From: Candidatus Gastranaerophilales bacterium
GTDB lineage: Bacteria; Cyanobacteriota; Vampirovibrionia; Gastranaerophilales; Gastranaerophilaceae
Reading direction: 5' to 3'
NCBI GenBank assembly: GCA_944325575.1
Contig: CALVAR010000001.1
Span: 62,001 to 126,000, forward strand
Length of the DNA stretch: 64,000 nucleotides
Each line of letters opens with the position of its first letter. The first letter of the stretch is position 1. Shown in pieces: positions 1,233-26,436 of the stretch. The position numbers were made by a program, and so were the translations under genes. The notes under the pieces were generated by a model, which was given only the letters and a program-made list of their open reading frames with translations, was not told the DNA's origin and did not search any database.

Positions 1233-1242
1233 TGTTATATCC

Positions 1243-3748: not shown

Positions 3749-3765
3749 ATCACCCGGTTTACCTA

Positions 3766-6741: not shown

Positions 6742-6770
6742 TTGAAGACTTTATGTCAATGTGATATACT
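6742..6770 (+). promoter_or_regulatory. Promoter of the giant FliD-like gene
   Basis: TTGAAG (6742-6747), a 17-bp spacer and TATACT (6765-6770) preceded by TGA (an extended -10) form a good sigma-70 promoter. Transcription would begin near 6777, leaving a leader of about 30 nt. No obvious sigma-28 flagellar promoter was seen. The rest of the interval 6553-6807 is AT-rich and carries no gene I can support. Confidence 0.6.
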
Positions 6771-6807
6771 ATTGATATGTTGTAGTGGATAGTTATTGTG
6801 AGCCGAA

Positions 6808-9800
6808 ATGGATTTTTCAATAGGTAACTTAAACGGCACTAATGCCAATATAAGCAGTATGATTTCGCAATTGATTGCGAAAAAAACATCTTCGATGAAT
6901 TCTTTGCTTGATCAGAGAGCATCTATTGAAAATGCTCTTGCGACTTTACAAAATTCTTCACTCGGCATAGGTTCTATTAACAATTCGTACAGCTCACAGA
7001 TTGCATCTTTGCAGGATTCTATAGATGCAATGAAAGAACAATACACTATCAATGCAAACAAACTAAACACTATAAACAGTCTTAATAACAGCTACAATAA
7101 AACTGTATCCACATTAGATGATTATATACAGAGTTTAAAAAATCCAAATCCAAATGATTCGTTAGTCTCAGGCTCAAGCTCTAACGGTAATGTAGCTGGT
7201 GTTGATGTTGATAATTCAGCTAATCCGCAAAGAATAGAGCTTTCTGTTTCTCAGCTTGCTACTTGTTCCGTCTTAAAGAGCGGTATAATCAGCGGAACAT
7301 CTATTACTGGCAATACTAAAATTACAGACCTGTTTGCCGGTAATTATGACAGTGCTTCCAACACAATTAGTTCACTGCGTACTGATATTTCAGAAAGTAT
7401 GAAACTTTCTGAGCTAGGTGTTAAAAGCGGCAGCTTTAAGCTTGGCTCACGTGTTATAACAGTAAAATCGGATGAAACAGTCGGCGATTTAATTAATAAA
7501 ATAAATGCTGACTCTAACTACACTGCAAAAATCGACAGAGCAACTGGTGCTTTCACTATATCCGCAAAATCAGGCAGCTCAGTAGCTATTACAAATGCTG
7601 TAGGAGATTTAAACGTAAGCGGAAATCTTTCCACAACAACTAAACTTGAAGATTTGGGAATAAAAAGCGGCGCATATTTTGTTGGCGGAGTCCAGATTGA
7701 TGTTGCTGACGGTGATACGGTCGGCGTACTTATCGATAAACTTGAGGCAGAGGGATTTAATGCTTCTATTCAAACTGATACTAATAATCCTTCATCCAAG
7801 GTCTTAAGCATAACAGATTCTAACGGCAATAAAGTAAGTACAGAAGGGACAAATTTTGCTTCAGCGGCAGGGTTTACAGTTTCTGAAGGTACATTCAGTA
7901 TAAACGGCGAAACTTTTACAATCGGTTCAGACACAACAATTGATGATTTGCTGTATCAGATTAATAAAGCTACTGACGACGGCGTAGGCGCAATTTTTAA
8001 AGACGGACAGATAGTTCTCACTGCCAGCAAAACAGGCGCTGTAGAGATAAATGTTGAAAAAGGTTCTTCAAACTTTACTAATGCTGTAGGTTTTACTACC
8101 GGCGGTGTAATGAACACAGGCAACCTTGTAATGGGCAGCGATGGTTCTTATGTAACTTTAAAGGGTTTAAATAGCGGTATAAAAGGTTCTGATATAGCCA
8201 AGGCTGACGGAAGCGGTAAATTTACTTCCGGTAATTTTCTGATTTCATACAGCAAGATTGATGATCTTGGAAATGCTACTAATGAAATGCTTACAACAGA
8301 AATCGTTGTAGAAGACGGCGATACAATTAATGATATTATTCAGAAAATTAAAAATCAGACTACACAAAAATATACAGACTCAGAAGGTGTAGAACGTACA
8401 AACTACTTGCAGGCAGAGATAGTAGACGGACATTTTCAAATCAGACAAACTGCAAAGGGCGCTGATTTTGATATAGCCGTACAGGCAGGTTCATCCACTT
8501 TTACAAGCTATGTGGGGCTGACAAAAGACGTTGGCACTGGGGTATCTACAAGCGGAAGCGCAACAACTTATACCGGTGTAAATGCTGTTACTGACTCGAC
8601 AACATTTACAGAGGGCAGTTTTAAAATTACGGCTTCATTGGCGAATAACCCTAACAAAACAGAAACTGTAACAATTGAAGTCGGTGCTAATGAGACTCTC
8701 CAATCTGTAATGGATAAAATTAATAATTCAGGTCTTGCTATAAGAGCACAGCTTGTAACGGCTTCTGATGGTACACAGAGATTGCAGCTGGCACACAATA
8801 ACTATGGCAGCGGTTATCAGATATCCGTTGAGGCAGGTGATACAAACTTTACCAATGTAGTAGGCTTCACCACATCTGTTTCAACAGGAGTATCAAATGA
8901 TGGTTCAAGTTCTACATTGACAGGTATTGTGACAGGGCTTGATAAAAATACAACAGGATACAAAGACGGCTCTTTTGTAATTTCGACAAATAAACTTTCT
9001 TCTGACGGCAAAACCGCATCATCCGAGATGGCATCGGCAATAATCGAGGTAGATTCTTCAATGAGCCTGCAGGATATAATGGATAAGATTAATTCTGCAA
9101 CATATAAGGATGCCTCCGGCAATGATGTCGATTTAGGACTAAGAGCTTCTCTTACTTCAGACGGCAGAATCCAGATTTCTCAGATACACGGCGGCGAAGG
9201 CTTTGATATAAAAGTAGAAGCCGGTGATACCAATTTTACACAGGAAGTTGGCCTGACAAAAGACGTTACTGTCGGAGTTTCAACGGGATCTACATCATCT
9301 TATATTATGGGGACAAAGACCTATAACGGAACATTTACAGAGGGCTCTTTTAAAATTACAACAAATAAAGTTGGAGCTGACGGCAGTGCTTCTTCGGAAA
9401 TGATTTCGGTTGATGTAAATATAGAAGCCGGAAAAACACTGGCACAACAGCTTGATTCTATAAATGCACAGTTAAATTCAATCGGACTTTCAGCTTCTGT
9501 TATTGCTGACGGCGCAGACGCAGGTAAAATTAAAATAGAACAATTGAATTCCGGTGCAGGCTTTGATATCAAAATAGAAGCAGGCAGCACAGATTTTACG
9601 GAAAAACTCGGACTGACAACACAGGTTTCAACAGGTGTGTCAAACGACGGTACATTTGCTTATGTTCTTGGTAAAAATGACCTGTCAAATACTGCGGGAT
9701 ATACAGCAGGTGACTTTACCGTTACAACAAATAAAACCGATGCAGAGGGCAATCCTCTTGATGAAATGCAGTCTGTTACGGTAAAACTGCAGGCAGGTCT

Positions 9801-12800
9801 TTCTGCACAGGAAGCTGTAAATTCTATTAACAGCCAGCTTGCTTCTATCGGCTTGAGCGCAACAATAGAAGACGGAAAAATTAAAATTTCCCAAACTAAC
9901 GCAGGTGCAGGATTTGACATAAAAATCGAAGGTGGCAGTACAAACTTTACGGAAAAAGCAGGACTTACAAAAGATGTCTCTGTCGGTACATCCACAGACG
10001 GTACTGCAACAAAAATAGTAGGCAATAAGAACGTTACCTCTTCGCAAAAAGGGTTTAGCGAAGGTTCATTTACAATCACTTCCGGCAAAACCGGCGAAGG
10101 TGCCACAGTGACAATAGATATTTCTGCAAATGATACCATACAGAGTGTAATAAACAAAATTAACAGCTCGGGTATTGATGTATCCGCTTATATAGATGAT
10201 AACGGCAAATTTGTTATCCAGCAAAATAATGCAGGTCCTGACTACTTTATTACGGTTGAGGCGGGCAATACAGACTTTACGCAGGTTGTAGGCATTACAG
10301 CAAACGTTACAACTGGCGTTTCAAACGAAGCCCAGAATGCTACCCTGACGGGTACAATAGGCAATCTCAATCCCGGTATGACATTTACCGAGGGCGAATT
10401 TGTTATTACAACAAACGACGTTACCCACGGAACACAAGAGGGATACTTTGCCGACCCGAATAAATTCCTTTCAACAACAATATCAGTGGCAAAGGGCGAC
10501 ACCCTTCAGGATGTTATTGATAAGATTAATCAGCAGGGTGCGTCCATAGGTATTTCCGCTTCTTTGACATCGGATGGCAAGATTCAGCTTTCACAGTTGA
10601 ACGGCGGAAGCGGTTTCACTATATCCGTTACGGCCGGTTCTACAAACTTTACGGAAAAAGTAGGACTTACTGCTGCGGTTTCTGCAGGTGAATCAACAAA
10701 CGGCTCTTATACTAATATAACCGGTACAAATAATGTTTCCGGCACAGATACTGCGGGTGTAGGACATATTGACAGAGATACCGCTATAGCTATGGGTTAC
10801 ACTGTTGTATCTATGGCAGATGAACTCGTAAATGCCCTGAAATCAGGCGCTGATAAGATAATGCTCACAGGCAACATCGACATGTCCGGTGTTGACTATA
10901 CTCCTGATTCTTCAAATGCATTTAGCGGTGTGTTTGACGGCAACGGATACTATATATCCAATTTGAAGGTAAATTCTACTGTCGGAGGCGGTCTTTTTGG
11001 TGGTTTGGATGGTGCAGTCGTAAGGAACATAGGATTTGTAAATGCTGATATCAAAGCCGCAGGCGCTGTAGGTGTACTGGCGGCTGTTGCTTCCAATTCG
11101 ACAATTTCCAATGTCTATGTAAAAGACTCTAGTGTGGCATCTACAGCTGGCTCTGTGAGTGCTTTGGTCGCTTTTACCAGTGGTGATGTTTCGATTAACA
11201 ATGTAGTTGTTGAAAACACTACTATTTTCGGCAATAACTCGGATCAGGGCGGGCTTGTCGCAAGGGTTGTCGACGGTAATTTATCAATTTCAAATTCTGC
11301 AGTTGATGATATTCTCTTTACTTATACACCTTCAGGGAATAGACCTGTTGGCGGTTTTATAGGAATAGTTTTTCAAGGTAATGTTTCTGTTTCGAACAGT
11401 ATTGCAAATTTTGTATCATCAAATACATCTCAGGCTGGCAGCATAGCAGGGGTAGTTTTAGAACCCGGGATTGTTTCATTTAATGTTTCAAACGTAGTAT
11501 CAATGAGCAATTTGAATCCGGTTGTTAACGATTATTCAGGTAACTCTTATACCGGTGCTGTCGAAGAGGTCGGATACAATGATTTTGCTTCTGTTACTAC
11601 AGACTTGTCCGGCATAGAAATTGTCAAAGATGACAGCTCTTCATCAGGATACAGAATATCAAATACAATTCTTGAAAATACGCTGGGTGAATCGGACGGC
11701 TCTGACAGTAAATTTACAACCGGTAATTTTAAAATCACTGCAGGCACAAGCGGAAACGAAATCACTGCCGAAATAACTGTCGAAGACGGTGATACAATCG
11801 ACGATATTATAAACAAAATTAACTCTGCAGGTCTTGGCGTTACGGCTTCCATAACGGCTGACGGGAAATTTACTATTACATCAAACTCAGCAGACCCTGA
11901 CTTCCGTATAAAGGTAGAATCGGGCTCATCTGATTTCCTTGCTTATGTCGGAATGGCATCTGCTGTACAAAATACAGGTATACTCACTTCCGGCAGCGAC
12001 GCAAACCAGTATACAACACTGACCGGCTCCGCAAATCTGACTAACGGCAATGAGGCAATTACATCGGGCTCGTTTAAAATAAACGGAGTCACTATAGAAG
12101 TTTCCGGCACTATAGAAAACGCGCTAAACCAGATAAATAACTATACGTCCCAAACAGGCGTGGTTGCCGAACTTGTGCAGAATGACTCGGGCAGTTACAA
12201 CGTTGTCCTTCGTGCCGCCAAAACAGGCTCCGGTACTTCTATCTATGTAGAAGGCGGTACATCCGACTTTGGCGTAGTCGCTGGCTTGACTACACAGTCA
12301 GTAGGCGGCGGAGCAGCTCTTGGTACGGAAGGCGTAAAACAAACAATAACAGGTTCAAAAGATGTTGTACATCAATTGACGGAAGCCGAAGCAACAGCAC
12401 AGGGATATACTGTTATACACAATGCAAGCGAATTCGCCAGCAAAATAAATGCAAACAAATCAGGCAAGTTTATGCTGATGGGCGATATTGACCTGAGCTC
12501 TGTATCCTATACTGCAATATCCGGCTTTTCCGGTACACTCGACGGCAACGGGTATACAATAGAAGGCCTTTCGGGTTCCAGCGGCCTTTTCGAGACAACA
12601 TCTGCCGGTGCAACCATTAAAAATTTAAATATTGAAAATTTTGTTCTAAATAATACAGGTAATACCCAAACGGGTATACTTATTGATAATGCTATAGGTG
12701 CTTTGACTGTTGAAAACATAAATGTTTCCAATGCTTCTGTAACCGGTACAACAGTCGGTCTTATTGGCAGCTCACTCAACACTTCTATGCATACTCCTTT

Positions 12801-15800
12801 AAATGTTAATAATATATTTATAGACAGCAATGTAAAATTTAATGGCGATGGTGCCGGTTCTGTTATAGGATCATCTGTTGCTGCAGATTTGAATTTTTCA
12901 AATATTGAAATCCATGCACAAATAGAAGCAGAGAAAGTCCTTGGCGGTATAGTCGGGTCCTTTAGTACAGGTATAATTGAATTTGATAATATTCTGTTTG
13001 ATGGTGATTTGTATTCTTCTAACACTTCAGTACAAGCCGGTGCTCTTTTTGGAAAAGTTTTAGATGAAGACATGCAAAACAGATTGCATAATATTTATTT
13101 GTCGCCAACTACTCATGATATGTCGAATCCTCTTGTCTCTATGGATTCTAGCGTAATAAAGGCGAGTGTCTTTGGAAATTCAGTTGAATATCATAATTTT
13201 GAAGTTATAAATTTCTATTTTGATTCAGATTCCATTGAATATGATGATTTAATAAATGCAAATCATCTTAGCGGTATAAACGGACAATCTTTTGAACAAA
13301 TCACTTCAAACAGACAGTTCTATGCTTCGCCTTATACGCAGATATCTGCAGGCACGGTAAAAGTCAACGGTACTACGATTACTCTTACGGCAGGTACTAT
13401 AGATGAAGCTATCGCACAGATAAATGCAAAATCCTCACAAACAGGAGTAACTGCTGCTATAAAAGACGGCAGAGTAGTCTTTATGAGCGATTCTGCTTTC
13501 ACTGTTGCCGAGGGCACAAGCGACTTTGTCCAAAAGACAGGTACTGCAGGCTATACGATAAACAGCGTAACCTCAAGCACAAGAGGCGACGTTGTTACAG
13601 GTACTCAGGATCTTAACAAAATTTCTGCCGAAGAAGCTGAAGACCTCGGCTATACTGTGGTAACAACAAAATCCGAACTTATTTCCGCATTGCAGGCGAA
13701 CGAAAATATCATGCTGATGAATGATATTGATATGTCAGGATCATCTAATAATTTTAATTATTCCGGCATATTAAACGGCAACGGCTATACTATCAAAAAT
13801 CTTACAAGCACTTTGTTGGGTACTGCTTATAACGGCACTATTATTAAGAACCTGAAAATCGACGGCGCAAATGTCGGCGGTAGCGCTATTGATTCAATAC
13901 TTGTTACAGAGGCTTACGGCTCTGTTACATTTGAAAATATAGAAGTTACAAATTCTGAAATAAACGGAGGCGGTGCTCCTTATCAAAGCGGCGTCCTTGT
14001 CGGACTTGCAACCAACGGTTCATCATTAACCTTCAGGAATATAAAAATAGCTGATTCCGTCTCTATATCCGGTGCAAGTAATATCGGCGGTCTTGCCGGT
14101 ACATTGGACAATGCAGACGCTCTTGTCCAGAATGTGCAGGTAAGTGCTCATATTGACGGGGACAATTATCTGGGCGGTATTTTCGGCTCTGTATCCGGTA
14201 ATGTTACTTTTGATAATGTAGTGTCAAACGGCTCTATTTTCTCCGATGCACAAATAAGCAATCAATTTGCAGGCGGCTTTGTAGGCTATACCTCCAATGC
14301 AAACACAAAATTAACATTTATGGATTCTTATGCAGATGTAGATATGCAGATGGATGAAGTTTGGGTCGAAAATTCAGGCACCAATATGACTCTCTGGGCA
14401 AGTAACCCGTTATATATAAATCAGTTTGTCGGCTATCTCTATCAGGGATCTACATCATTTAAAAATTCATATTATCTTAGCAGCAATGCATTTACTGCTA
14501 AGGGTGAACTTGGTACAGCCACTGCAACTGAAAAAACTATTGATTCTTTTGACGAAAACTGGTCTTCACGCAAGGTTTCGCTCACAGAAGACGAGGCTGT
14601 TGCTCTCGGATATACTGTTATACACAACGCAAACGAATTCCGATCAAAAATCGCATCCGACCTTGACGGCAAGTTTATGCTTGTGGGCGATATTGATCTG
14701 AGCACAGTTTCGTATAGTACTTTATACAATTTTAAAGGCACTCTTGACGGCAACGGTTATACAATAAAGAATTTTACAAGTTCAACTGCATATGGCCTGT
14801 TTTCTGCTACACAAGACGGTGCAACCTTCAAAAATCTTACACTTGATAATATTAATTTGTCTGTATCTTCGTCATCAGACACAGGGCTTTTAATCGGTAT
14901 GGCTACGGGCGATTTTACTATAGATAATATCGTAGTAAAAAATTCTTCTGTTAATGCACACTCAGCCGGCGGCTTGATAGGAGGAATAAGTTACACTGCT
15001 TCAATTCCCGTAATAGGCACAATAAATAATATTTATATTGATAAATCAGTAGAAATTAACGGAGGAGCAGCAGCCGGCGGTGTTGTTTCTTCAGCTGCGT
15101 ATACAGGCAGAAATGCTGCAGGATCTCATTTGTATATAAGCAATGTTTCTTCTTACGCAAAAGTAAGCACCACCTCCGCGGGCGGCGACGGAAGATATGG
15201 TGCCGGCGGTATAGTAGGTTCTACTTCCATGAACCTGGATATTGTAAATGTCCGTGTTGGAGGTTCTGTTTCCGGTGCAAAATATGCAGGCGGAATTTTA
15301 GGCAGTTTTTATAAAGGCACTAATACAAATACCGCTGAAATTAATATAAGTCAGGCATTTTTTACAGGTTCTCTTTCAACTGCATCCGGTACATCAGGAG
15401 GCGGTATCGTCGGTATGCAGTCAGGTGATATTACAAACTCTTCTTATGTGGAAGTTAATGTTAGTAGTTCCTATTATTCCAACAGTTCATATACTGACAG
15501 GTTTGGAGCAACATATGCTTCAAATACCGCAACGCTGGCAAAAGACAGAGAATTCTTTTCTTCTCAGTATTTGACATACTGGACGAAAAATCCCAATACA
15601 GACCCGGGTGATTGGGGTTTGGGTCCAAGCATCCTTGCTAATGCTAATGGTATAAGTATAAACGGTACAAATATATCTCTGGCAAACGGTGATAATATAA
15701 ACACTGTTATCAGCAAAATTAATGAACAGTCCTCTACAACCGGAGTTACTGCAGAGCTTGTTGACGGATATATACAGTTTTATTCCGACGAGAAGTTCTC

Positions 15801-18800
15801 TTTGAAATCCCCGAGCAATGCGACATCACCAGCGGGTTCTTTCGTGACAAGTGATTTTATGAAGCAACTCGGTGTAACGGGCGATATGTATGGGGTCAAT
15901 GTTCTTACAAGTTCCGTAAGCGGATTGAATCGCGATACTGTTCTTGACGGGCTTAGCGCAGGTACTTTAAATCTGCAGTCACAGCACGGTGAGAAAGCTG
16001 ATGTCACAATTGGCGCATCTGACACATTAGGCGATATTATAGATAAAATAAACAAAACTGATTACTTTAGAGCGGGTCTGGACTCTGAAGGTAGATTCTA
16101 TATAGAAGATTTGAAACCTTATGATAATAACAATGCTATGGTTATAGGCAGTGGTCCCATTAAATATGTATTTAATGTTGATAATTCGGATACAAATTTT
16201 GAAAACCTTCTAGGTTTAGGCTCTTATTCCACAACTTATGAAGATAAGTCACAATCATCAATATTTACGACCTTAAAGGGTTCATCTTCCGTTACCGGCA
16301 ACGAAACTCTGGATGCCGGTACGTTTACTCTGATGCTCGGCGACAAGAGCCAGAACTTTACCGTTAATCAGGGTGAAACAATAAACTCCGTGCTTGATAA
16401 AATCAATGCTTCTTCCATCGGGATAAGCGCTTATATAGAAAACAACAAGATTGTACTTATTACGGATGAACAGACACCTGACAATATTGCCCTTAAAGAA
16501 GTATCGGGTAACTTTGGCACGGTCAGCGGTTTGACTACTATTACAAACTATGGCGGAGAGTCTGTTGTTGGTCATGAAGGTTCTTATACTACGCTTAAAG
16601 GTTCTAATACCGTAGCTGCTGGCATTTCAAAAGCAGAAGCCGAAGCAAAAGGCTATATTGCTGTTTCTACTGCTCAAGAACTCAGAAATGCAATGCTCAA
16701 CAGCAGTACGTCAAAGACAATTGTTCTTATGAATGACATTGATATGTCAGGATTCGGTACTTCTATATCAAGCTTTGCCGGTACTATAGACGGTAACGGA
16801 TATACTCTCAAAAATTATACAAATACAGACGGGCTTATTAAAACAACCAAAGGTTCTGTCACTATTAAGAACCTCAATATAGACAACTTCAATATTTCCG
16901 GTTCGTCGTCAAGCGATTATCACTCATTGCTGATTGATAATACTTCTTATACCGTGACTGTCGATTCCGTAAATATTACAAATTCTCAGGTAAACGGACT
17001 CCAGCATAGCGGGGCGCTTATAGGCTATTCTTCACGTACGGTAAGTATAAATAACGTAAGCATTGACGAAAATACACTGATTAAAGCAAGCTCTCACTAT
17101 GGAGGAGCACTCATAGGCTCTATGAGCGGTCTTATCCTTTCTATCAATAATGTATATTCAGCTGCTGAGATTGACTGCTGGGATGAAGCAGGAGGACTTG
17201 TCGGTTATGCAACTTCAACTCTAAAAAGCTTGACTGTAAAAGATGTATTTATTGAAGGAACAATCAATGTTTCCAGCACGTCCGGATACTCCGGTGGTCT
17301 TGTCGGCAGATTCGCATCCAATTCTGTAAGTGATGATATATCAAATGTCATTATAAACAGTGATTTTCTTGTAGCGCATGAAGATGCAGATTCTGCAACA
17401 GGAAGTTTTCACGCAAATATTCTAAGCAATGCCTCTTTGTCCGGTGAATATATTTTCTACAACTCGGATAAAACTCCGTCTGTTGTAAATACCGACGGCG
17501 CTCAAGCTATTTCAACCGTAGGTAGTAAGACAGGTTATGATAAAAATACATTTGTATCTAATAAATTTACGCAGGTCTCTGCAGGCACTATACAAATTAA
17601 CGGGCAGAATATTATTCTGTCGGGCGGTAATATAGGCACTGCAATCAATGAAATCAATGAATACTCTTCTAAAACCGGAGTGACTGCTTCTGTCGAAGAC
17701 GGAAAAGTTGTATTTAAAAACACTCAATACGGCTCAAACGGAATCAGCATCACTGCAGGTACAAGCGACTTTGTTGAAGTAACGGGAACTGCCGGCTATG
17801 CAATATCTGCTCCTACGACTACTGTAGAAGGCGGCCGGGTGACAGGCACTGCCGGTATTGATACTTCCACTCGTTATACTGCTGAAGAAGCTCAGGCTAT
17901 GGGATATACGGTTGTAAAAACAGGCCAGCAGCTATTAGACGCTCTTGTTGCAAATAAAGACAAGATAATGCTCATGAACAATATTACAATGAGCTCTGCT
18001 GCTGTTATAGAAAATTTTGACGGTATTTTAGACGGCAACGGCTATACAATAAGCGGTATGAATAATATGCTCATAAATTCCACCGAGGATGGTGCAGTTA
18101 TCAAAAACCTCAAAATCGTCGGTGCTAATGTTTCAAATAATGCTATGTATACAGGTTTCCTTGTCGGACAGGCTAAAGGTTCAATAACTTTTGAAAACAT
18201 AGAGATAACAAATTCTGCTCTGACAGGTACGACAATGGTCGGTGCACTGGTAGGACGGGTAGCTTCAAAATCTGTATTTTTAGCTGACAATATCTATATC
18301 GGCGATGATGTTACTATTACTGGCGGTCAACAGGTAGGCGGTCTGGCAGGAATTGTACTCTCAAATACAAAATCTGTAGTGACAAATGTTACTGCAGCAG
18401 CGCAAATTCAAGCATCTTCATATCTGGGACTCGGCGGCATAATAGGGTATGCATATTCTGATGCAACTTTTGAAAATGTAAAATCAGAGGGTTCAATTAA
18501 CACAACATATACAGGTAGTGGCACTCTGTATATGGGCGGTTTTATCGGATATCTGTCTTCCACAAAACAAAATAATATTATTTTTAAAGACACATATGCC
18601 AAAGTAAAAATGACAAAAGGTTTGGCATCTCCATCCAATTCCGCCACTGTTAACCAGTATGTAGGTTATAATAATAACCTATCTAATACTATATATAATG
18701 TAGATAATGCAAAATTCTATAGAGGCGGTGCATATGGCGGTACTGATTCTATGGAAATCGGTACTGCTACGACATCAAGCACTGTACCTTCTGATATAGG

Positions 18801-21800
18801 TTTTGATGACAACTGGACTGTAAAATCCGTAATTCTGTCTGAAACAAAGGCTGCTGCACAGGGTTATACTGTTATTCACAATGCTCAGGAGTTCGTAGAC
18901 AAGATAAAAGCCGACCTGGACGGCAAGTTTATTTTGATGGGAAATATTGATTTCAGAAATGTTTCTTATACTTCTATTTCCGGCTTTAGCGGCACATTAA
19001 ACGGCAACGGATATACCATAAAAAATCTATCTGCGGAAAACGGACTGTTTGCTACTACGGAAGACGGTGCTGATATCAAAAACCTGACTCTGGACGGCTT
19101 TACTATAGCAGGTGCTACTACGGCAGGTGCTCTGATAGGTACTGCCAACGGCTCTGCAAATATTGAAAATATTCTCTTAAAAAATACTTATTTTGATGTC
19201 AGTTACATGGGCGGGCTTGTTGGCACTTTTAGTGCAGAAAACAGCGTTTTAAACATAAATAATGTATATGTAGACTCATCTGTTACAGCAGAGGATACTT
19301 TGCAAGCAGGCGGTATACTCGGAACTTCTGCATATGATTCCTCTACTGTAATTATCAGAAATGCAGAATCTTATGCTACACTGAGCACATTATTTGTTGT
19401 GGGCGCAGGCGGTATTGCATGTGCAATCAGCTCAGATGCTGTTATAACCAATGTCCGCACAGGAGGCAGTCTGAGCGGTTTTGGCAGCGGGGGAATTGTG
19501 GCTGCAGTAGATACATCAGTAGACGCAAACGGCGACGTATTTATATCCAAAGCCTATACCTCTGCCCAAATAACTGGTTCAACTAACGATGGAAGCCCTG
19601 CTGAAGCTATTGTCGGTCATAACGACACATCTGATGGCGGAACTCTTACCGTTAAGGACTCTTATTATAGTAACAATTCATATTCTAATGATAACGGCGG
19701 TACATACTCCGCTTCTGCAAGCAGTCAAAAATTCTATCAGGCAGCTTACACTCAGGTTTCGTCCGGCACAATTAGCATAAACGGTGTGTCTGTCAGACTC
19801 GAAGAAGGCTCTATAGCTTCGGCTATAGGTACTATAAATGAGTATTCTGATCAAACAGGGGTAAAAGCTTATATAAATTCATCTAACAGAATTGTCTTTG
19901 ATGCTATAGAAGGCTCAGGCCAGGGTGTAACTATTACAAAAGGAACCAGTGATTTTTATTCCAAAGCTGTAAATTCTTTTAACTCATCCTTATCTCACTC
20001 TATTACAAAGACAACCGGATCTGTAAAGCTGACAGAAGATATAAAATTGGATGGACTGTCAGATGGCAGCATCACTATAGACGGTAAAACAATTAAATAC
20101 ACTTCTAATATGACTGTAGGTCAGGTTATTGATCTTATAAATGAAGCTGCAACAAGCCTTAATGGCACGCCTATAGCAGGACATTATTTTGCAGCGGCTT
20201 TTACTGCAGGTTTGGATGAACAGGGCAGGTTCTTTATCAAGACAGACGGCGATATTTCATTTACTGGCAATTTAGCTAAATTTATAGGTTTTGAATCCGG
20301 TGTTGTCTCATCTGGACCGGAGCTTGTTCTTGGATATGATGAAAAGTTCTCTACTCTTACCGGAACAAAAAATGTTAATGTTAACTCTGATGTATCAAGC
20401 GGTGATTTCTATATCAACTATAACGGTAAATCACAAAAATTTACAGTAGGTGATAATGAAACCATTCAATCTGTTATGGACAAAATCACTAATTCCTCTT
20501 TGGGTGTTACCGCTACTATTCAAAACGGAAAAATCGTTATTACGGCAAATGAAGCTAATTCCGAAAGAATCTATATAACTGACGGTACAAGCAACTTCTC
20601 CGAACTTGCGGGATTTACGTCAGAAGGCGCGCAATCCGGTACTACCGTGCAGGGTGCTGATTCTGTTTACATGTCTTCTAATACTGCGCTTAGTGCTCAG
20701 GGTACCTACTCTGACGGCGATTTCTATGTCCATCTGACGGATACTGACGGAAATATAACTGATACTGCAAGAATTGAGATTGCCGCATCTGATTCTATAC
20801 AGGATATTATTAACAAAATCAATGATTCAGGTCTCGGTGTTACTGCTTATATCGATGAAACAACCGGCAGACTGGCAATAAAACGTGATTCTTCAACCCA
20901 GGCAGGCGGTGTGCTCGTAACAAAAGGTACAAGCGATTTTACTAACAAAATAGGATTTACCTCCGGCGGTGAACAGAATGTTGTAACCAATGCCGGTTCT
21001 CAGGCAGAACTTGTCTCTCAAAACACTGCTACAAATGCGAAATTCTCTGACGGTAACTTTATAATTCAGATTACTGACAAAGACGGCAATGTTACTTCAG
21101 AACACGTTTTTGAAGTTTCTTCAGGTGATAGCGCGCAAAAAATTGCGCAGATGATTACCGATGCAGGTATCGGGCTTACTGCATATATTGATAATACTAC
21201 TGACAAAATGGTCATAAAACGTAATACCGATTCCGGCGAGGGCGGATTTATCATACAAAAAGGTACTTCTGATTTTACTACCGTTATGAACTTTACATCC
21301 GGCGGTTATGAAATCGGCGTTAAAGAAGATGGTGAAACTGCTTCTATTACTTCATTGTACAATGTATCATCAGCAGGTAACTTTACAGCAGGTACATTCT
21401 ATATTGACGGTACCGAAATCACCATTACGGAAGCTGATTTAAAATCCGCAAACAAGATACAGACAATTCTTGACAGAATCACAGAATTGACAGATGTAGT
21501 GGCAACTCTTGATAATCAAAACAGAATTGTACTCACCAAAAAGTCTTCTGCTGGTGAAGGCGAAATTGAAATAGTTAAGGGCACGTCTGATTTTACTTCT
21601 AAATTTGGATTTACATCAGGCGGATACCAGAATGCAATTGTTACTGACGGTACAACAGCAACTATTACCTCAGGTGTTACTTCTTATAATACCAAAGTGT
21701 CAGCAGGAGATTTCTATCTGCAGCTTACAGGTGATAATGCAACTGATCCTATAAAAATTACTGTTGATGAAGGTGATACTGTTGGTACTATCATTGACAA

Positions 21801-24576
21801 GATTAATGCTATGGATATTGGTGTTGCTGCTTCCTGGGACAGCTCTGCTAACAAAATCGTTATTACTAGAGATGCAGAAACAGGCGAAGGCGGTATCAAT
21901 GTTATAAAAGGCACATCTGATTTTACAAACCTTGTCGGATTTACATCGGGCGGTCAGCAGGATCCCGCTACAGTTAACGGTAATACTGCTTCTATAACTT
22001 CAAATAATCAGGTTGGTCCTGACACTGCCATTACAAAAGGTGATTTTATTATCAGATTTAACGGCACTGATCATGTAATTGAGCTTACTAAAGATACAAC
22101 TATAGATGAAGTTATAGATAAAATTAATCAAATCGACGGTTTGACTGCTGCTTATGATGATACTACCAAAAAGATTACTATCACCCGTGACGGTGACAGC
22201 GGCGAAGGCAATTTTGAAATAATTAAGGGTACAAGCAACTTTACGACAGTTGCAGGATTTACATCCGGCGGCACACAGTCTTCTTCCGCTATTAGAGGCA
22301 GCAAAGCTTCTATTACTTCTACAAACTCTATCAATGATTCACAGAAGTTTACTCAAGGTGACTTTACTATTAATCTTACAGGCGAGAATGCAGCTTCTAT
22401 AAAGATTAATGTTGATACAAATGATACTATTATTTCTATCGTTGATAAAATCAATGCACTCAATGCCGGTGTTACGGCAAGATATGACAACACTACAGGG
22501 CTTATTACAATTTCCCGTGATGCTGAAACAGGCGACGGTTCTATAGAAATTGTCAAAGGTTCGTCTAATTTCACTAATGTTGTCGGCTTTACACAGGGCG
22601 GCTCATCAAGTGCATCCTTCAACGATGGCGAATATGCAGAAATTACTGCACAAAAATCTGCTGCCGCAAATCAACATTTTGGCGCAGGTGACTTTACAAT
22701 CAGGCTTACAGGTGACAATGCATCGAGCATAACTATAGATGTTACTGCCGACGACACTATGCAGTCTATTATCAATAAGATTAATGCTGCTGATGCAGGT
22801 GTAACTGCTTATCTTAATGATGACAACAAGCTTGTTATAAAACGTGATGCTGATACAGGAGTCGGCGGTATAGAAATTGTAAAAGGCTCAAGCTCCTTTA
22901 CGACGGATATAGGTTTGACTACCGGCGGCGATGAATACTCCGGAATTCATGATGCCGGCGAATCCGCTAAAATAGTCAGCACTCAGGATGTATCTACAGC
23001 ACAGGGATCTTATACATCAGGCAATTTCTTTATACAAATGCTTGATAAAGACGGCAATCCCGAGGCAGGCGGATTGATTCAGATTGACATAAATAAATCC
23101 GGTAATACAGTAGATGATATTAATACAATTATAAACAATATCAATGCTAAGAATGCCGGTATAACGGCTTCTATAGAAAACGGCAAGCTCGTGTTGACAC
23201 GGGATGAATCACTGGATGCAGGTTCATTTGTAGTTCTTAAAGGTACTTCTGACTTTACAAACGTAATTGGTTTGACTGCAGGCGGTTCCCTGCAAGATGG
23301 TGTATATGAAGCTGGTAATGCGGCTACTCATACTGTTTTAACAAGTCAGGATCTTGGTAAAAAACTGGTCAGTGATTCTATGACACTTGGATCAATAGGT
23401 GTTAAGACAGGCACATTTAGGATTAACGGTGTTGATATCAATGTTAAGTCAAGTGATACAATTTACGATCTTGTTTCAAGAATTAATTCTGTATTCTCTG
23501 ATCCTAAGTATGAAGGTATAGCAGTTACTGCTTCTTATGAAAATGGTGAGATGGTTCTGCGTTCAAAAGAAGCATCCTCTACAGCTAGAGTTACTGTGGA
23601 ACGAGGTACTTCTAATTTTACTGACATTGCTAATTTTACAAATTCATATCAAAATTCATCAGACCTTGGTATTTTAGAAGAAGGTCACAACGCCCACTTT
23701 ACTATTAACGGTAAAGAATATGATATGGCTCTTGATCTTAAAGATATAACTGATGACAATGTTTACAACGGCAATAATCTTATCTATCTTGATGCTGATG
23801 GAAATGTTGTTACAAGTGCTGATGATGCTTCTATCACAATTGAAGTAAAACAAACTGGCAGCACAACTATAGACATCGGCAGAAACCTCTTAAATGACAG
23901 TGTTGAAAAACTGCAAAGCTTTGTAAACAGATTTAATACTGCAATGGATGCAGCCGCTAATCCGATAATGTCTGATGACACTGAGTTTGCTGCATTTATA
24001 AATCAAATCAAGTCTGCATTAACAAGCAATATTGGCTCTATGAACAAAATTACCCAAAAATTGGCTGAAATCGGTATTATAGTAAAAGTTACCGGCGGAA
24101 CTAATTCAAATATGGGCACCGTCGAGATGTCTCTGTCAAAAACTAACGGCAAATATGACTATGTTGAAGCTTTCTATGATGATCCGCAAAAAGTAATGGA
24201 TTTGATTATCGGTGATGACTCCAATCCGCTTGATTACAGTGTAGCAGGTGCATTTACAAGATTGTCTGATACTATACATTATGCTCTTGAAAATAACAGA
24301 GGCGGATATTTCAAAGTTACTCCGCGCTCTTTAGAAGCACAGCAAAAGGCTCTTAAACGTGAAATTACTAAAACAACTTTTGATTTGAATGAATTGAAAA
24401 ATACTGCAGCCGGTGACAACGGTATGCAAGGACTCAGTGAATACTTGCTGCAGCTTGAACAACAATATCAACTCATAAATGAGGCAATTATTGCTCTTAA
24501 TAAACAATACAGTTCATCTATAACAAGACTTGTTTTAAACAAAAACAATAGCGCGTTTAATCCGATTGTTTCATAA
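6808..24576 (+). CDS. Giant FliD-like repeat protein, 5,922 residues
   Basis: Both ends look like the flagellar filament cap FliD. The first 130 residues form a coiled-coil D0-like start (ISSMISQLIAKKTSSMNSLL) followed by ELSVSQLA. The last 300 hold a FliD C-terminal domain (about 5,680-5,922), including LQSFVNRFNTAMDAA and EYLLQLEQQYQLINEAI. The interior is repetitive. About 25 flagellin-IN-like units of 90-120 residues carry motifs such as DTIQSVINKINSSG and KGTSDFTNxxGFTSGG. Seven beta-helix/GLUG-like modules have conserved GYTV glycines at residues 1330, 1866, 2281, 2601, 3282, 3699 and 4019, each followed by a DGNGYTI turn. FliD proteins are usually 400-700 residues. There is no signal peptide and very little cysteine, as expected for flagellar export. 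It could be a cap-derived adhesin or filament decoration. The ribosome binding site is weak. Confidence 0.85.
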   Translation: MDFSIGNLNGTNANISSMISQLIAKKTSSMNSLLDQRASIENALATLQNSSLGIGSINNSYSSQIASLQDSIDAMKEQYTINANKLNTINSLNNSYNKTVSTLDDYIQSLKNPNPNDSLVSGSSSNGNVAGVDVDNSANPQRIELSVSQLATCSVLKSGIISGTSITGNTKITDLFAGNYDSASNTISSLRTDISESMKLSELGVKSGSFKLGSRVITVKSDETVGDLINKINADSNYTAKIDRATGAFTISAKSGSSVAITNAVGDLNVSGNLSTTTKLEDLGIKSGAYFVGGVQIDVADGDTVGVLIDKLEAEGFNASIQTDTNNPSSKVLSITDSNGNKVSTEGTNFASAAGFTVSEGTFSINGETFTIGSDTTIDDLLYQINKATDDGVGAIFKDGQIVLTASKTGAVEINVEKGSSNFTNAVGFTTGGVMNTGNLVMGSDGSYVTLKGLNSGIKGSDIAKADGSGKFTSGNFLISYSKIDDLGNATNEMLTTEIVVEDGDTINDIIQKIKNQTTQKYTDSEGVERTNYLQAEIVDGHFQIRQTAKGADFDIAVQAGSSTFTSYVGLTKDVGTGVSTSGSATTYTGVNAVTDSTTFTEGSFKITASLANNPNKTETVTIEVGANETLQSVMDKINNSGLAIRAQLVTASDGTQRLQLAHNNYGSGYQISVEAGDTNFTNVVGFTTSVSTGVSNDGSSSTLTGIVTGLDKNTTGYKDGSFVISTNKLSSDGKTASSEMASAIIEVDSSMSLQDIMDKINSATYKDASGNDVDLGLRASLTSDGRIQISQIHGGEGFDIKVEAGDTNFTQEVGLTKDVTVGVSTGSTSSYIMGTKTYNGTFTEGSFKITTNKVGADGSASSEMISVDVNIEAGKTLAQQLDSINAQLNSIGLSASVIADGADAGKIKIEQLNSGAGFDIKIEAGSTDFTEKLGLTTQVSTGVSNDGTFAYVLGKNDLSNTAGYTAGDFTVTTNKTDAEGNPLDEMQSVTVKLQAGLSAQEAVNSINSQLASIGLSATIEDGKIKISQTNAGAGFDIKIEGGSTNFTEKAGLTKDVSVGTSTDGTATKIVGNKNVTSSQKGFSEGSFTITSGKTGEGATVTIDISANDTIQSVINKINSSGIDVSAYIDDNGKFVIQQNNAGPDYFITVEAGNTDFTQVVGITANVTTGVSNEAQNATLTGTIGNLNPGMTFTEGEFVITTNDVTHGTQEGYFADPNKFLSTTISVAKGDTLQDVIDKINQQGASIGISASLTSDGKIQLSQLNGGSGFTISVTAGSTNFTEKVGLTAAVSAGESTNGSYTNITGTNNVSGTDTAGVGHIDRDTAIAMGYTVVSMADELVNALKSGADKIMLTGNIDMSGVDYTPDSSNAFSGVFDGNGYYISNLKVNSTVGGGLFGGLDGAVVRNIGFVNADIKAAGAVGVLAAVASNSTISNVYVKDSSVASTAGSVSALVAFTSGDVSINNVVVENTTIFGNNSDQGGLVARVVDGNLSISNSAVDDILFTYTPSGNRPVGGFIGIVFQGNVSVSNSIANFVSSNTSQAGSIAGVVLEPGIVSFNVSNVVSMSNLNPVVNDYSGNSYTGAVEEVGYNDFASVTTDLSGIEIVKDDSSSSGYRISNTILENTLGESDGSDSKFTTGNFKITAGTSGNEITAEITVEDGDTIDDIINKINSAGLGVTASITADGKFTITSNSADPDFRIKVESGSSDFLAYVGMASAVQNTGILTSGSDANQYTTLTGSANLTNGNEAITSGSFKINGVTIEVSGTIENALNQINNYTSQTGVVAELVQNDSGSYNVVLRAAKTGSGTSIYVEGGTSDFGVVAGLTTQSVGGGAALGTEGVKQTITGSKDVVHQLTEAEATAQGYTVIHNASEFASKINANKSGKFMLMGDIDLSSVSYTAISGFSGTLDGNGYTIEGLSGSSGLFETTSAGATIKNLNIENFVLNNTGNTQTGILIDNAIGALTVENINVSNASVTGTTVGLIGSSLNTSMHTPLNVNNIFIDSNVKFNGDGAGSVIGSSVAADLNFSNIEIHAQIEAEKVLGGIVGSFSTGIIEFDNILFDGDLYSSNTSVQAGALFGKVLDEDMQNRLHNIYLSPTTHDMSNPLVSMDSSVIKASVFGNSVEYHNFEVINFYFDSDSIEYDDLINANHLSGINGQSFEQITSNRQFYASPYTQISAGTVKVNGTTITLTAGTIDEAIAQINAKSSQTGVTAAIKDGRVVFMSDSAFTVAEGTSDFVQKTGTAGYTINSVTSSTRGDVVTGTQDLNKISAEEAEDLGYTVVTTKSELISALQANENIMLMNDIDMSGSSNNFNYSGILNGNGYTIKNLTSTLLGTAYNGTIIKNLKIDGANVGGSAIDSILVTEAYGSVTFENIEVTNSEINGGGAPYQSGVLVGLATNGSSLTFRNIKIADSVSISGASNIGGLAGTLDNADALVQNVQVSAHIDGDNYLGGIFGSVSGNVTFDNVVSNGSIFSDAQISNQFAGGFVGYTSNANTKLTFMDSYADVDMQMDEVWVENSGTNMTLWASNPLYINQFVGYLYQGSTSFKNSYYLSSNAFTAKGELGTATATEKTIDSFDENWSSRKVSLTEDEAVALGYTVIHNANEFRSKIASDLDGKFMLVGDIDLSTVSYSTLYNFKGTLDGNGYTIKNFTSSTAYGLFSATQDGATFKNLTLDNINLSVSSSSDTGLLIGMATGDFTIDNIVVKNSSVNAHSAGGLIGGISYTASIPVIGTINNIYIDKSVEINGGAAAGGVVSSAAYTGRNAAGSHLYISNVSSYAKVSTTSAGGDGRYGAGGIVGSTSMNLDIVNVRVGGSVSGAKYAGGILGSFYKGTNTNTAEINISQAFFTGSLSTASGTSGGGIVGMQSGDITNSSYVEVNVSSSYYSNSSYTDRFGATYASNTATLAKDREFFSSQYLTYWTKNPNTDPGDWGLGPSILANANGISINGTNISLANGDNINTVISKINEQSSTTGVTAELVDGYIQFYSDEKFSLKSPSNATSPAGSFVTSDFMKQLGVTGDMYGVNVLTSSVSGLNRDTVLDGLSAGTLNLQSQHGEKADVTIGASDTLGDIIDKINKTDYFRAGLDSEGRFYIEDLKPYDNNNAMVIGSGPIKYVFNVDNSDTNFENLLGLGSYSTTYEDKSQSSIFTTLKGSSSVTGNETLDAGTFTLMLGDKSQNFTVNQGETINSVLDKINASSIGISAYIENNKIVLITDEQTPDNIALKEVSGNFGTVSGLTTITNYGGESVVGHEGSYTTLKGSNTVAAGISKAEAEAKGYIAVSTAQELRNAMLNSSTSKTIVLMNDIDMSGFGTSISSFAGTIDGNGYTLKNYTNTDGLIKTTKGSVTIKNLNIDNFNISGSSSSDYHSLLIDNTSYTVTVDSVNITNSQVNGLQHSGALIGYSSRTVSINNVSIDENTLIKASSHYGGALIGSMSGLILSINNVYSAAEIDCWDEAGGLVGYATSTLKSLTVKDVFIEGTINVSSTSGYSGGLVGRFASNSVSDDISNVIINSDFLVAHEDADSATGSFHANILSNASLSGEYIFYNSDKTPSVVNTDGAQAISTVGSKTGYDKNTFVSNKFTQVSAGTIQINGQNIILSGGNIGTAINEINEYSSKTGVTASVEDGKVVFKNTQYGSNGISITAGTSDFVEVTGTAGYAISAPTTTVEGGRVTGTAGIDTSTRYTAEEAQAMGYTVVKTGQQLLDALVANKDKIMLMNNITMSSAAVIENFDGILDGNGYTISGMNNMLINSTEDGAVIKNLKIVGANVSNNAMYTGFLVGQAKGSITFENIEITNSALTGTTMVGALVGRVASKSVFLADNIYIGDDVTITGGQQVGGLAGIVLSNTKSVVTNVTAAAQIQASSYLGLGGIIGYAYSDATFENVKSEGSINTTYTGSGTLYMGGFIGYLSSTKQNNIIFKDTYAKVKMTKGLASPSNSATVNQYVGYNNNLSNTIYNVDNAKFYRGGAYGGTDSMEIGTATTSSTVPSDIGFDDNWTVKSVILSETKAAAQGYTVIHNAQEFVDKIKADLDGKFILMGNIDFRNVSYTSISGFSGTLNGNGYTIKNLSAENGLFATTEDGADIKNLTLDGFTIAGATTAGALIGTANGSANIENILLKNTYFDVSYMGGLVGTFSAENSVLNINNVYVDSSVTAEDTLQAGGILGTSAYDSSTVIIRNAESYATLSTLFVVGAGGIACAISSDAVITNVRTGGSLSGFGSGGIVAAVDTSVDANGDVFISKAYTSAQITGSTNDGSPAEAIVGHNDTSDGGTLTVKDSYYSNNSYSNDNGGTYSASASSQKFYQAAYTQVSSGTISINGVSVRLEEGSIASAIGTINEYSDQTGVKAYINSSNRIVFDAIEGSGQGVTITKGTSDFYSKAVNSFNSSLSHSITKTTGSVKLTEDIKLDGLSDGSITIDGKTIKYTSNMTVGQVIDLINEAATSLNGTPIAGHYFAAAFTAGLDEQGRFFIKTDGDISFTGNLAKFIGFESGVVSSGPELVLGYDEKFSTLTGTKNVNVNSDVSSGDFYINYNGKSQKFTVGDNETIQSVMDKITNSSLGVTATIQNGKIVITANEANSERIYITDGTSNFSELAGFTSEGAQSGTTVQGADSVYMSSNTALSAQGTYSDGDFYVHLTDTDGNITDTARIEIAASDSIQDIINKINDSGLGVTAYIDETTGRLAIKRDSSTQAGGVLVTKGTSDFTNKIGFTSGGEQNVVTNAGSQAELVSQNTATNAKFSDGNFIIQITDKDGNVTSEHVFEVSSGDSAQKIAQMITDAGIGLTAYIDNTTDKMVIKRNTDSGEGGFIIQKGTSDFTTVMNFTSGGYEIGVKEDGETASITSLYNVSSAGNFTAGTFYIDGTEITITEADLKSANKIQTILDRITELTDVVATLDNQNRIVLTKKSSAGEGEIEIVKGTSDFTSKFGFTSGGYQNAIVTDGTTATITSGVTSYNTKVSAGDFYLQLTGDNATDPIKITVDEGDTVGTIIDKINAMDIGVAASWDSSANKIVITRDAETGEGGINVIKGTSDFTNLVGFTSGGQQDPATVNGNTASITSNNQVGPDTAITKGDFIIRFNGTDHVIELTKDTTIDEVIDKINQIDGLTAAYDDTTKKITITRDGDSGEGNFEIIKGTSNFTTVAGFTSGGTQSSSAIRGSKASITSTNSINDSQKFTQGDFTINLTGENAASIKINVDTNDTIISIVDKINALNAGVTARYDNTTGLITISRDAETGDGSIEIVKGSSNFTNVVGFTQGGSSSASFNDGEYAEITAQKSAAANQHFGAGDFTIRLTGDNASSITIDVTADDTMQSIINKINAADAGVTAYLNDDNKLVIKRDADTGVGGIEIVKGSSSFTTDIGLTTGGDEYSGIHDAGESAKIVSTQDVSTAQGSYTSGNFFIQMLDKDGNPEAGGLIQIDINKSGNTVDDINTIINNINAKNAGITASIENGKLVLTRDESLDAGSFVVLKGTSDFTNVIGLTAGGSLQDGVYEAGNAATHTVLTSQDLGKKLVSDSMTLGSIGVKTGTFRINGVDINVKSSDTIYDLVSRINSVFSDPKYEGIAVTASYENGEMVLRSKEASSTARVTVERGTSNFTDIANFTNSYQNSSDLGILEEGHNAHFTINGKEYDMALDLKDITDDNVYNGNNLIYLDADGNVVTSADDASITIEVKQTGSTTIDIGRNLLNDSVEKLQSFVNRFNTAMDAAANPIMSDDTEFAAFINQIKSALTSNIGSMNKITQKLAEIGIIVKVTGGTNSNMGTVEMSLSKTNGKYDYVEAFYDDPQKVMDLIIGDDSNPLDYSVAGAFTRLSDTIHYALENNRGGYFKVTPRSLEAQQKALKREITKTTFDLNELKNTAAGDNGMQGLSEYLLQLEQQYQLINEAIIALNKQYSSSITRLVLNKNNSAFNPIVS
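12376..16600 (+). repeat. Internal tandem duplication, copy A
   Basis: This part of the giant gene encodes three beta-helix modules with conserved GYTV glycines at residues 1866, 2281 and 2601, and the IN-like repeats that follow. Copy B repeats the same order with module spacings of 417 and 320 residues, against 415 and 320 here. Shared landmarks include the linker ending GTAGY before the second module and LDGLSxGxxxx with GRFxI after the third. Boundaries are approximate. Confidence 0.7.
16601..20620 (+). repeat. Internal tandem duplication, copy B
   Basis: This is the second copy of the block of about 1,400 residues, with module glycines at residues 3282, 3699 and 4019, offset from copy A by 1416, 1418 and 1418 residues. 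The second module of each copy shares IKNLKIxGANV and the third shares YTVIHNA with LDGKFxLxGxID. The copies have diverged clearly, so the duplication is not recent. Confidence 0.7.
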
Positions 24577-24687: not shown

Positions 24688-26436
24688 ATGTCAATATCAT
24701 TTTCAGGTGTAGGTTCAGGATTACCCATCGATGAGTGGGTTACAGCTTTAGTGAAGGTGGAGCAGGACAAAGTCGATGCTCTGGAAGATGAAAGAGATGC
24801 ACTTACAGACAAGCAAAATATATTAAACAGTTTGAGTTCGGAATATAGCTCAGTTCAAAGTGCTACTTTGACTTTTACAGATTCTTTACTTGGTGCTGGA
24901 TCTGATATATTTTCTAAAGTCTCTGTATCAGCTTCTGATACAAGTGTTGTCACAGCGACTGTTACGCAGTTTGCCACTCCTGCAACTATAGAACTTGAAA
25001 TTGAATCTTTGGCATCTTCTTCCATTAAAACTTCTGAATATAATGAGGCCTTGAAAGATTCTTCAAAAAAACTTTCTGATCTCGGTGTTACTACTGCGGG
25101 TAACTTCCAGATAAACGGTGCAACTATTAATGTTACTCCTGATATGACAATCGACTCTCTTGTATATCAGATTAACAGCTCAACCTCGGCAAATGTAAAA
25201 GCTTCTTTGAAAAACGGACGTTTAGTCCTTGAAAACAGAGAAGCAGGTACTAAACAGGTTGAAGTCACCGGTACTGATTTAGTAGACGGGACACATAATT
25301 TTGCAGAACTCTTGGGGCTCGATAAAACATCTTCCGCTCAAAATTCTAAGAAAAATGATTTATTAAATACAGGTTCTACAACTCTTGCTGAATTGGGAGT
25401 AGAACAAGACGGAAATATAAATATTAATGGCACAGCGATAAATATAACAACTGATATGACAGTTGACGAATTTATCAGTGCAGTTAATTCATCTGATGCA
25501 GGTGTAACAGCTTCTGTTCAAAACGGCATAATGGTTTTGGAAAATACTGACGGAAGCAACGATCCTATAGATATGAATGGTTCAAATGTCGCTGGCAGCA
25601 GAAATTTTGCTGAATTAATGGGATTTACTTCTTATAATGATAGCGGCACTAATGCAGTATTCTATCTTAATGGCGACAGAAAAGAATCTACTTCAAATTC
25701 TGTATCCAGCGATGTAACCGGGATTTTGGGTCTGTCTTTAGACCTTTTAACAACAACTGACGGTGATCCTATTACAATCGAAATAACCAGAGATTACGAT
25801 TCAGAAGAGCCTCTTACTGCTTTGCAAACTTTTGTTGAGGCTTTTAATAAAATTGTTACTAATACAAACTTATATACTGATTCCGATTCAACTGAAAAAA
25901 ACGGCGGTATATTATCCGGTGAAAATAACCTTGTTCGTATTAAAAATAGTTTAAGAACTCTTGTTACTTCTACTGTTGAAAATTCGGGACAATATAAATC
26001 ATTGGCTGACATTGGTATTACAACAGGTGCACCGGGTCTAGATGTGTCTGCCGATACTACACAACTTATTATTGATGAAGAAAAGTTTTTAGATGCTTAT
26101 GAAAAAGATCCTGCATCTGTTAAGGCTTTGTTAATCGGTGATAATTCATCGGGCACTACACAAGAAGGATTGATGCAAAAACTTCAAACACAGCTCGAGG
26201 CTGCTACTGATCGTACATCAGGATATTTTGCGGCTAGAGGTGATTCTCTTGCGTCACAAATTTCGAATATGAATGACAAAATTGATAAAAAGCAAGAATA
26301 TGTTTATTCATATCAGGAAAAATTAACAAATCAGTTTAATTATATGGACCAGATGATAGCACAGATGAACTCTCAGTTTACTGCAATGCAGCAGCAGCTT
26401 GCTTCAATCGGTGTAAATATGGGCAGTTCATCATAG
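24688..26436 (+). CDS. fliD: Flagellar filament capping protein FliD (hook-associated protein 2)
   Basis: This 582-residue protein has the normal FliD layout. The N-terminal domain starts with VGSGLPIDEWVTALVKVEQ, close to the family pattern SGLDxxxxVxxLVxxE. Two flagellin-IN-like repeats follow at about 130-215 and 230-315 (LSDLGVTTAGNFQINGATI and LAELGVEQDGNININGTAI). The C-terminal FliD domain has coiled-coil ends (LQTFVEAFNKIV; YVYSYQEKLTNQFNYMDQMI). FliD caps the growing filament and helps flagellin fold. A GAGGTG ribosome site precedes the ATG. It lies 111 bp downstream of the giant gene on the same strand, and the two are paralogous at their ends. Its stop codon abuts the stop of recR on the other strand. 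Confidence 0.92.
   Translation: MSISFSGVGSGLPIDEWVTALVKVEQDKVDALEDERDALTDKQNILNSLSSEYSSVQSATLTFTDSLLGAGSDIFSKVSVSASDTSVVTATVTQFATPATIELEIESLASSSIKTSEYNEALKDSSKKLSDLGVTTAGNFQINGATINVTPDMTIDSLVYQINSSTSANVKASLKNGRLVLENREAGTKQVEVTGTDLVDGTHNFAELLGLDKTSSAQNSKKNDLLNTGSTTLAELGVEQDGNININGTAINITTDMTVDEFISAVNSSDAGVTASVQNGIMVLENTDGSNDPIDMNGSNVAGSRNFAELMGFTSYNDSGTNAVFYLNGDRKESTSNSVSSDVTGILGLSLDLLTTTDGDPITIEITRDYDSEEPLTALQTFVEAFNKIVTNTNLYTDSDSTEKNGGILSGENNLVRIKNSLRTLVTSTVENSGQYKSLADIGITTGAPGLDVSADTTQLIIDEEKFLDAYEKDPASVKALLIGDNSSGTTQEGLMQKLQTQLEAATDRTSGYFAARGDSLASQISNMNDKIDKKQEYVYSYQEKLTNQFNYMDQMIAQMNSQFTAMQQQLASIGVNMGSSS

Follow-up and report, generated by a model that had tools for sequence, protein, structure and literature searches.

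A giant FliD-like protein encoded beside fliD in a Candidatus Gastranaerophilales genome, and its relatives within the same bacterial family

The flagellar cap protein FliD (HAP2; PF02465 and PF07195, structures 6SIH and 9GNZ) is commonly regarded as a small tip chaperone that looks invariant, with a length of about 400-700 residues that is typical rather than definitional. Additional domains do occur. For instance, FliD of C. jejuni carries a D4 insertion that is suspected by its authors to be related to heparin binding and adherence (PMC7316729). A comparable enlargement of the outer variable region, with the assembly ends kept, is found in the giant flagellins, which exceed about 1,000 residues (PMC6248924). 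Outside the flagellar system, fibrillar adhesins (PMC9210967) and the giant extracellular proteins of Apilactobacillus (PMC12863079) are surface proteins that combine a long stalk and putative binding modules with extreme length, and the GLUG/M26_N beta-solenoid is known from IgA1 proteases (3n6z, 7uvl). The Gastranaerophilales are an order of Candidatus Melainabacteria, non-photosynthetic relatives of the cyanobacteria; in an earlier survey only some of its members had complete flagellar gene sets (PMC4040986).

The gene described here encodes a protein that resembles each of these systems in part. It is like FliD at both ends (on profile evidence, joined at the C-terminus by the predicted fold), in the Flagellin_IN domains of its head, in the apparent lack of a signal peptide, in its few cysteines and in the position of its gene next to fliD. 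It is unlike FliD in its length, which is about tenfold greater (as much as nineteenfold in the relatives from genus g45), in a head that comprises about 29 IN domains together with five beta-solenoid blocks, in the extra helical segments at both ends and in occurring beside a normal fliD. The insert of C. jejuni FliD is a single domain lodged in the D1 helix bundle, whereas that of the giant amounts to thousands of residues in the head; the giant flagellins are flagellins rather than caps and have no FliD ends. The interior blocks share sequence motif and predicted fold with the IgA1-protease solenoid, but they are embedded in a FliD-type protein without the catalytic metalloprotease part, and, in contrast to the fibrillar adhesins and the Apilactobacillus proteins, the giant has cap ends and no apparent signal peptide. 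In the literature searched, which left out many subscription journals, we found neither a FliD or flagellin joined with GLUG nor a giant FliD, and FliD and Melainabacteria appeared together in one paper only, with a single mention of each. The giants thus form a real protein family within the FliD family, real because related genomes carry versions of up to about 11,000 residues, and apparently undescribed as far as that literature reaches.

The window, i.e. the whole stretch of 64,000 nucleotides that was analysed, derives from a 2.02-Mb draft metagenome-assembled genome of Candidatus Gastranaerophilales (G000). The features that matter for the argument are the following.

6756..6785, forward strand: conserved promoter-like element TCAATGTGATATACTATTGATATGTTGTAG, upstream of the giant gene
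6808..24576, forward strand: giant FliD-like gene, 5,922 codons in one intact frame
6808..7287, forward strand: N-terminal FliD_N-like D0/D1 region, residues 1-160 (Pfam FliD_N, hhalign, dN/dS 0.03-0.06)
7420..10671, forward strand: first Flagellin_IN-type array, residues 205-1288, ten repeats
10672..11709, forward strand: GLUG/M26_N beta-solenoid block 1, residues 1289-1634
12292..13338, forward strand: GLUG/M26_N block 2, residues 1829-2177
13549..15645, forward strand: GLUG/M26_N block 3, double, residues 2248-2946
16537..17571, forward strand: GLUG/M26_N block 4, a predicted beta-solenoid, residues 3244-3588
17794..19752, forward strand: GLUG/M26_N block 5, double, residues 3663-4315
19753..23640, forward strand: second Flagellin_IN-type array, residues 4316-5611, twelve repeats
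23641..24573, forward strand: C-terminal FliD_C-like D1/D0 region, residues 5612-5922 (hhalign, Pfam in orthologues, Foldseek)
24688..26436, forward strand: standard-sized fliD, 582 aa, with Pfam FliD_N and FliD_C, directly downstream of the giant gene

No internal stop occurs across the 5,922 codons, and the G+C content at the three codon positions (45/43/31%) follows the pattern expected for coding DNA. The product has a predicted mass of about 616 kDa and a calculated pI of 4.4. It contains 3 cysteines (several relatives have 0; flagellar export substrates are typically poor in cysteine), and its N-terminus, judged by eye, does not start like a signal peptide; both features agree with flagellar export, as indirect indications only. 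The 582-aa fliD, which follows after a gap of 111 bp, matches FliD_N with E 2e-15 and FliD_C with E 2e-41 and is the sole FliD_C match in the genome in the Pfam scan. On the other side, the giant gene starts 292 bp from the start of a divergent Omp85 gene. The latter belongs to an operon-like set at 840-6516 on the reverse strand (two ExbD genes, one of ExbB/MotA type, one TonB-like gene and the Omp85/POTRA gene) that is syntenic genus-wide.

A sequence-only reading of the window had claimed an intact frame of 17.8 kb lying directly before a standard-sized fliD, a product without a signal peptide, and N- and C-terminal regions of the flagellar cap type. The first three claims held as described above, the signal peptide on inspection by eye only, and the fourth held by profile-profile comparison and fold search, the direct comparison with Pfam being weak for this particular protein. 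FliD_N scored 23.4 bits in one scan and 30.6 bits in the genome scan (residues about 69-152; cut-off 24.8 bits) and was therefore borderline, and FliD_C gave no match at E<=0.001. Five orthologues (G020, G018, G011, G013 and G022) do score above the Pfam cut-off for FliD_C. Profile-profile comparison was decisive: with hhalign, the N-terminal profile of the giant matches FliD N-termini with a probability of 94.7% over residues 67-160, and the C-terminal profile matches the genus's own FliD profile with 99.9% (99.8% in a second comparison), against 7% and 0.2% for the crossed N-versus-C controls; all of these are single-comparison statistics. Relative to FliD the giant is longer by about 45 residues near the N-terminus and by about 23 in its C-terminal coiled coil. 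Residues 5493-5922 were modelled with AlphaFold2 at low confidence (mean pLDDT 61.5), and the model was therefore used for a family-level match only; its ten best PDB matches in Foldseek, all with low TM-scores, are without exception FliD or cap complexes (among them 9gnz, 9u4r, 6sih, 9m68, 9gsx, 6iwy and 5h5t). Sequence and predicted fold together thus place both ends in the FliD family with good support.

Other identities were considered at this level. Pfam detected no Flagellin_N or Flagellin_C in any piece of the giant, and scans of the whole protein revealed no autotransporter barrel and no RTX-type C-terminal signal domain; by domain content, and with its FliD-like C-terminus, the protein is neither an autotransporter nor a type I adhesin. 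A phage origin was ruled out, the pieces scanned having zero matches in PHROGs. An assembly artefact was ruled out as well, since complete or near-complete frames occur at the same site in five further assemblies and dN/dS at the ends is low.

The interior consists of two alternating module types. An iterated profile recovers about 29 Flagellin_IN-type domains (2,383 residues), and the five GLUG/M26_N beta-solenoid blocks cover another 2,392 residues. Block 4 was modelled by AlphaFold2 with a pLDDT of about 85-95 along the solenoid, and the top PDB matches of this model are 3n6z and N-terminal regions of IgA1 proteases. The IN domain that flanks block 4 has a predicted fold with a weak resemblance to FliD D2/D3 and to flagellins. 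Flagellin_IN domains are also found in the heads of FliD proteins and flagellins, and sequence and predicted fold show the interior to be an enlarged FliD-like head. The HExxH zinc motif is absent from all twelve giants checked, which makes proteolysis unlikely. Copy number and order of the blocks differ between species.

The evolutionary rates differ strongly between these parts. In comparisons with three orthologues, dN/dS is 0.02-0.06 for the N-terminal 430 residues and 0.04, 0.04 and 0.13 for the C-terminal region (0.13 in the comparison with G008), against 0.05, 0.04 and 0.12 for the neighbouring fliD in the same three comparisons. The solenoid blocks reach 0.21-0.57, and the IN arrays (0.05-0.32) lie between ends and solenoids. 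Because synonymous differences come close to saturation in parts of the gene and the alignment of the most divergent blocks is uncertain, these values are indications rather than precise estimates; ends and blocks differ widely in all three comparisons. The ends are thus under strong purifying selection and are held as tightly as FliD, and the solenoids diverge fast. As a separate observation, dS between G000 and G014 is only 0.28 in block 4 (residues 3244-3588), compared with about 0.6-2.1 in the rest of the gene, a hint that this block recombined between species.

The giant gene is present in 11 of the 23 genomes of the genus, several copies being truncated by contig ends. Orthologues in other assemblies include complete or near-complete frames of 3,827-6,553 codons, and five of these (G014, G006, G008, G002 and G013, the last without its final codons) occupy the same site. 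Closely related species without the gene also exist, and in six of them the site is the same except for the giant, with Omp85 followed by fliD at 236-283 bp.

Searching 383 genomes of the order yielded related giants in further genera, at least five in all, and among 386 sampled genomes of the phylum, FliD frames of more than 1,000 codons are confined to the bacterial family that carries the giants. The lengths of the relatives span 3,000-11,051 aa. All four g45 genomes examined encode a giant of 3,980-3,981 aa, which in three of them is divergent from a partner of 11,051, 8,903 or 3,012 aa; in the fourth genome a relative of 7,267 aa is located elsewhere. The 11,051-aa protein has IN, GLUG and M26_N matches. 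One of these divergent pairs lies at G186:C5:16001-49156 and 49603-61545 (11,051 and 3,980 codons); across the four genomes the 3,980-codon giant is near-constant in length, and the other giant varies between 3,012 and 11,051. In genus g36 the giants measure 4,363-6,131 aa, besides shorter frames, and the three tested for FliD ends keep ordinary, unambiguous ones: in G319 (6,131 aa) and G311 (5,283 aa) FliD_N covers roughly residues 10-112 (E about 1e-14 to 1e-15) and the C-terminus matches FliD_C (E about 1e-39), and G126 (4,700 aa) has FliD_N together with a FliD_C detected in the phylum-wide search. Length is therefore no bar to membership of the FliD family, because g36 proteins of 4,700-6,131 aa pass both Pfam tests.

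In a tree of the C-terminal regions, class A (the giants of g1 and g45) is a single clade that excludes every normal FliD (support 100/100), and the g36 giants (class B) pair with the normal FliDs of g36 (98/90). Some of the class A rows are long-branched and their deep placement is uncertain. The separate positions of the two classes imply that giant size arose at least twice.

How the remaining claims fared can now be stated. An interior of about 5,500 repeat residues had been proposed; the giant interior was confirmed, with two kinds of module instead of a single repeat. The inference that an intact frame implies selection was weak as reasoning, and selection itself was shown directly by dN/dS. 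The suggested comparison with related genomes produced the same-site orthologues and the giants of at least five genera, up to 11,051 aa. The two module types, the family-wide occurrence of giants of that size and the presence of the solenoid within flagellins (see below) go beyond that reading, and its proposal of export through the flagellar type III channel is still an inference, in a genome that does have flagellar machinery (an FlhA export gate and several flagellins).

The solenoid module is not restricted to the giants. The genome of the window encodes a 668-aa flagellin (G000:C1:269803-271809) with a GLUG solenoid in its middle/outer region that is homologous to the blocks of the giant, and in g36 (G252) the genes for a GLUG flagellin and a giant FliD are arranged tail-to-tail. 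Within the genus, GLUG flagellins were found in 6 of the 11 giant-bearing and in 0 of the 11 giant-less genomes (Fisher p 0.012). G003 was left out of this test, as it has GLUG flagellins and no detected FliD at 80% completeness; its inclusion gives p 0.027. The test overstates independence because the species share ancestry. The GLUG flagellins that were read (G000, G013, G008, G011, G022, G014 and G003) are intact. Their existence ties the module to the flagellar surface, as shown by sequence. Except in G013, no special GLUG similarity was clear between the cap-like giant and the flagellin of one genome, so that a recent exchange between cap and flagellin within genomes was, apart from that one, rejected. 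Two further flagellins were noted for their size: a frame of 1,358 residues in G011:C35, and an incomplete one of more than 800 residues with RTX-like GGxGxDxx repeats in G002:C39.

The conserved element upstream of the giants reads TCAATRTGATATACTRTTNATRTG. It has a single copy in the genome of the window, even with up to 3 mismatches allowed, and a genome-wide regulon was ruled out on this basis. By eye, similar elements were recognized 5' of the giants of six further congeneric species and in the intergenic stretches that separate the divergent g45 giants. Since the element is private to the giant, the sequence suggests that the gene is probably served by a dedicated promoter. A scan with an E. 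coli-type consensus for sigma-28 promoters upstream of the giants gave nothing above chance.

With respect to export, G000 has two full-length export gates of the FlhA/SctV type (C5:58001-76000 and C23:1499-3634), besides a partial frame on C8 and a remnant with stop codons on C2. Genes for a FliI/SctN-like ATPase and for other export-like proteins accompany the C5 homologue, which on sequence alone suggests a second type III export system in G000 and leaves an alternative export route for the giant open.

The explanation that we favour, and hold to be somewhat more likely than not, is that the giant is a FliD paralogue that is exported by the flagellar apparatus and held at the filament tip, where it would form stalks with binding heads; export, tip location, oligomerisation and adhesion are all inferred. 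The chain would be exported unfolded via the flagellar type III apparatus, like FliD, and its D0/D1 ends would hold it at the tip of some filaments, probably as an oligomer. Long acidic stalks would then project from the tip, with solenoid heads that may bind mucus, the host, food particles or other microbes, and the ordinary neighbouring FliD would still do the routine capping. As some species have the same solenoid on their flagellins, the whole filament surface may carry one binding module. This reading is supported by the FliD ends (unambiguous in g36) and the selection on them, the head position of the insert, the fixed site adjacent to fliD, the low cysteine content, the GLUG module shared with flagellins, the FlhA gate and several flagellins in the genome, and the D4 insertion of C. 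jejuni FliD. Against it stand the lack of any direct sign of where the protein is located or that it is exported, oligomerises or binds, the failure of the window's giant in the Pfam FliD_C test, the low confidence and low TM-scores of the C-terminal model, the missing sigma-28-like promoter, an element that is private to the giant, and the second FlhA/SctV-type locus as a possible exporter. Furthermore, the N-terminus of class A is extended and that of C. jejuni FliD makes oligomer contacts (PMC7316729), so that these giants may not form a normal cap.

The most serious alternative, and a possible one, is a flagellar-exported adhesin in which the FliD ends serve only as export or anchoring signal and not as a cap, so that the protein might be placed along the filament, at the hook-filament junction or in a released extracellular fibre. 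The extended N-terminus, the longer C-terminal coiled coil, the normal fliD kept beside the giant and the deep separation of class A from the normal FliDs agree with this, but the g36 giants retain ordinary FliD ends, and the C-terminal region finds its best fold matches among FliD structures from cap complexes. Export by the second FlhA/SctV-type apparatus, as part of a non-flagellar type III surface structure, would have its basis in the C5 locus; it is unlikely given that the gene adjoins fliD, the ends are FliD-like and the solenoid module is common to flagellins.

Two other explanations have little left in their favour. A functionless, drifting repeat expansion in a FliD duplicate would agree with the variable number and order of the blocks and with the close relatives that lack the gene, but it is strongly disfavoured by the measured purifying selection (dN/dS 0.02-0.13 for the ends, 0.05-0.32 for the IN arrays), by frames of 3,800-11,000 codons that are complete in many species, and by the conservation of a promoter-like element in two genera. 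A secreted M26/IgA1-type protease, or another enzyme, is suggested by the Pfam Peptidase_M26_N matches and the fold matches to IgA1 protease. These cover the non-catalytic N-terminal region only, and there is no catalytic Pfam domain; without HExxH in the twelve giants a protease identity was largely ruled out, and an enzymatic role in general is very improbable.

The giant-FliD reading can be extended to a bolder one, which as a whole we hold to be slightly on the doubtful side: a flagellar cap turned into a megadalton adhesive organ, with paired caps in some lineages. Cap subunits of about 0.6-1.2 MDa would be threaded through the narrow flagellar channel and form a brush of stalks at the tip, with a fast-evolving beta-solenoid binding module in common with the flagellins of the same cell. 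In g45 a constant, IN-rich cap (3,980-3,981 aa) and a variable one (3,012-11,051 aa) would share a divergent promoter region. Whatever the outcome, these are FliD proteins in which the ends were kept and the head has grown ten- to nineteen-fold, with at least two separate origins of such heads in uncultured gut bacteria. If they are exported by the flagellar route, they are extreme substrates for asking whether the channel has a size limit, and they would join motility and adhesion in one molecule whose variable head is under a different constraint from its anchor.

Elsewhere in the window, a 428-aa protein encoded on the reverse strand at 34637-35923 carries several EF-hand calcium-binding motifs, which are uncommon among bacteria.
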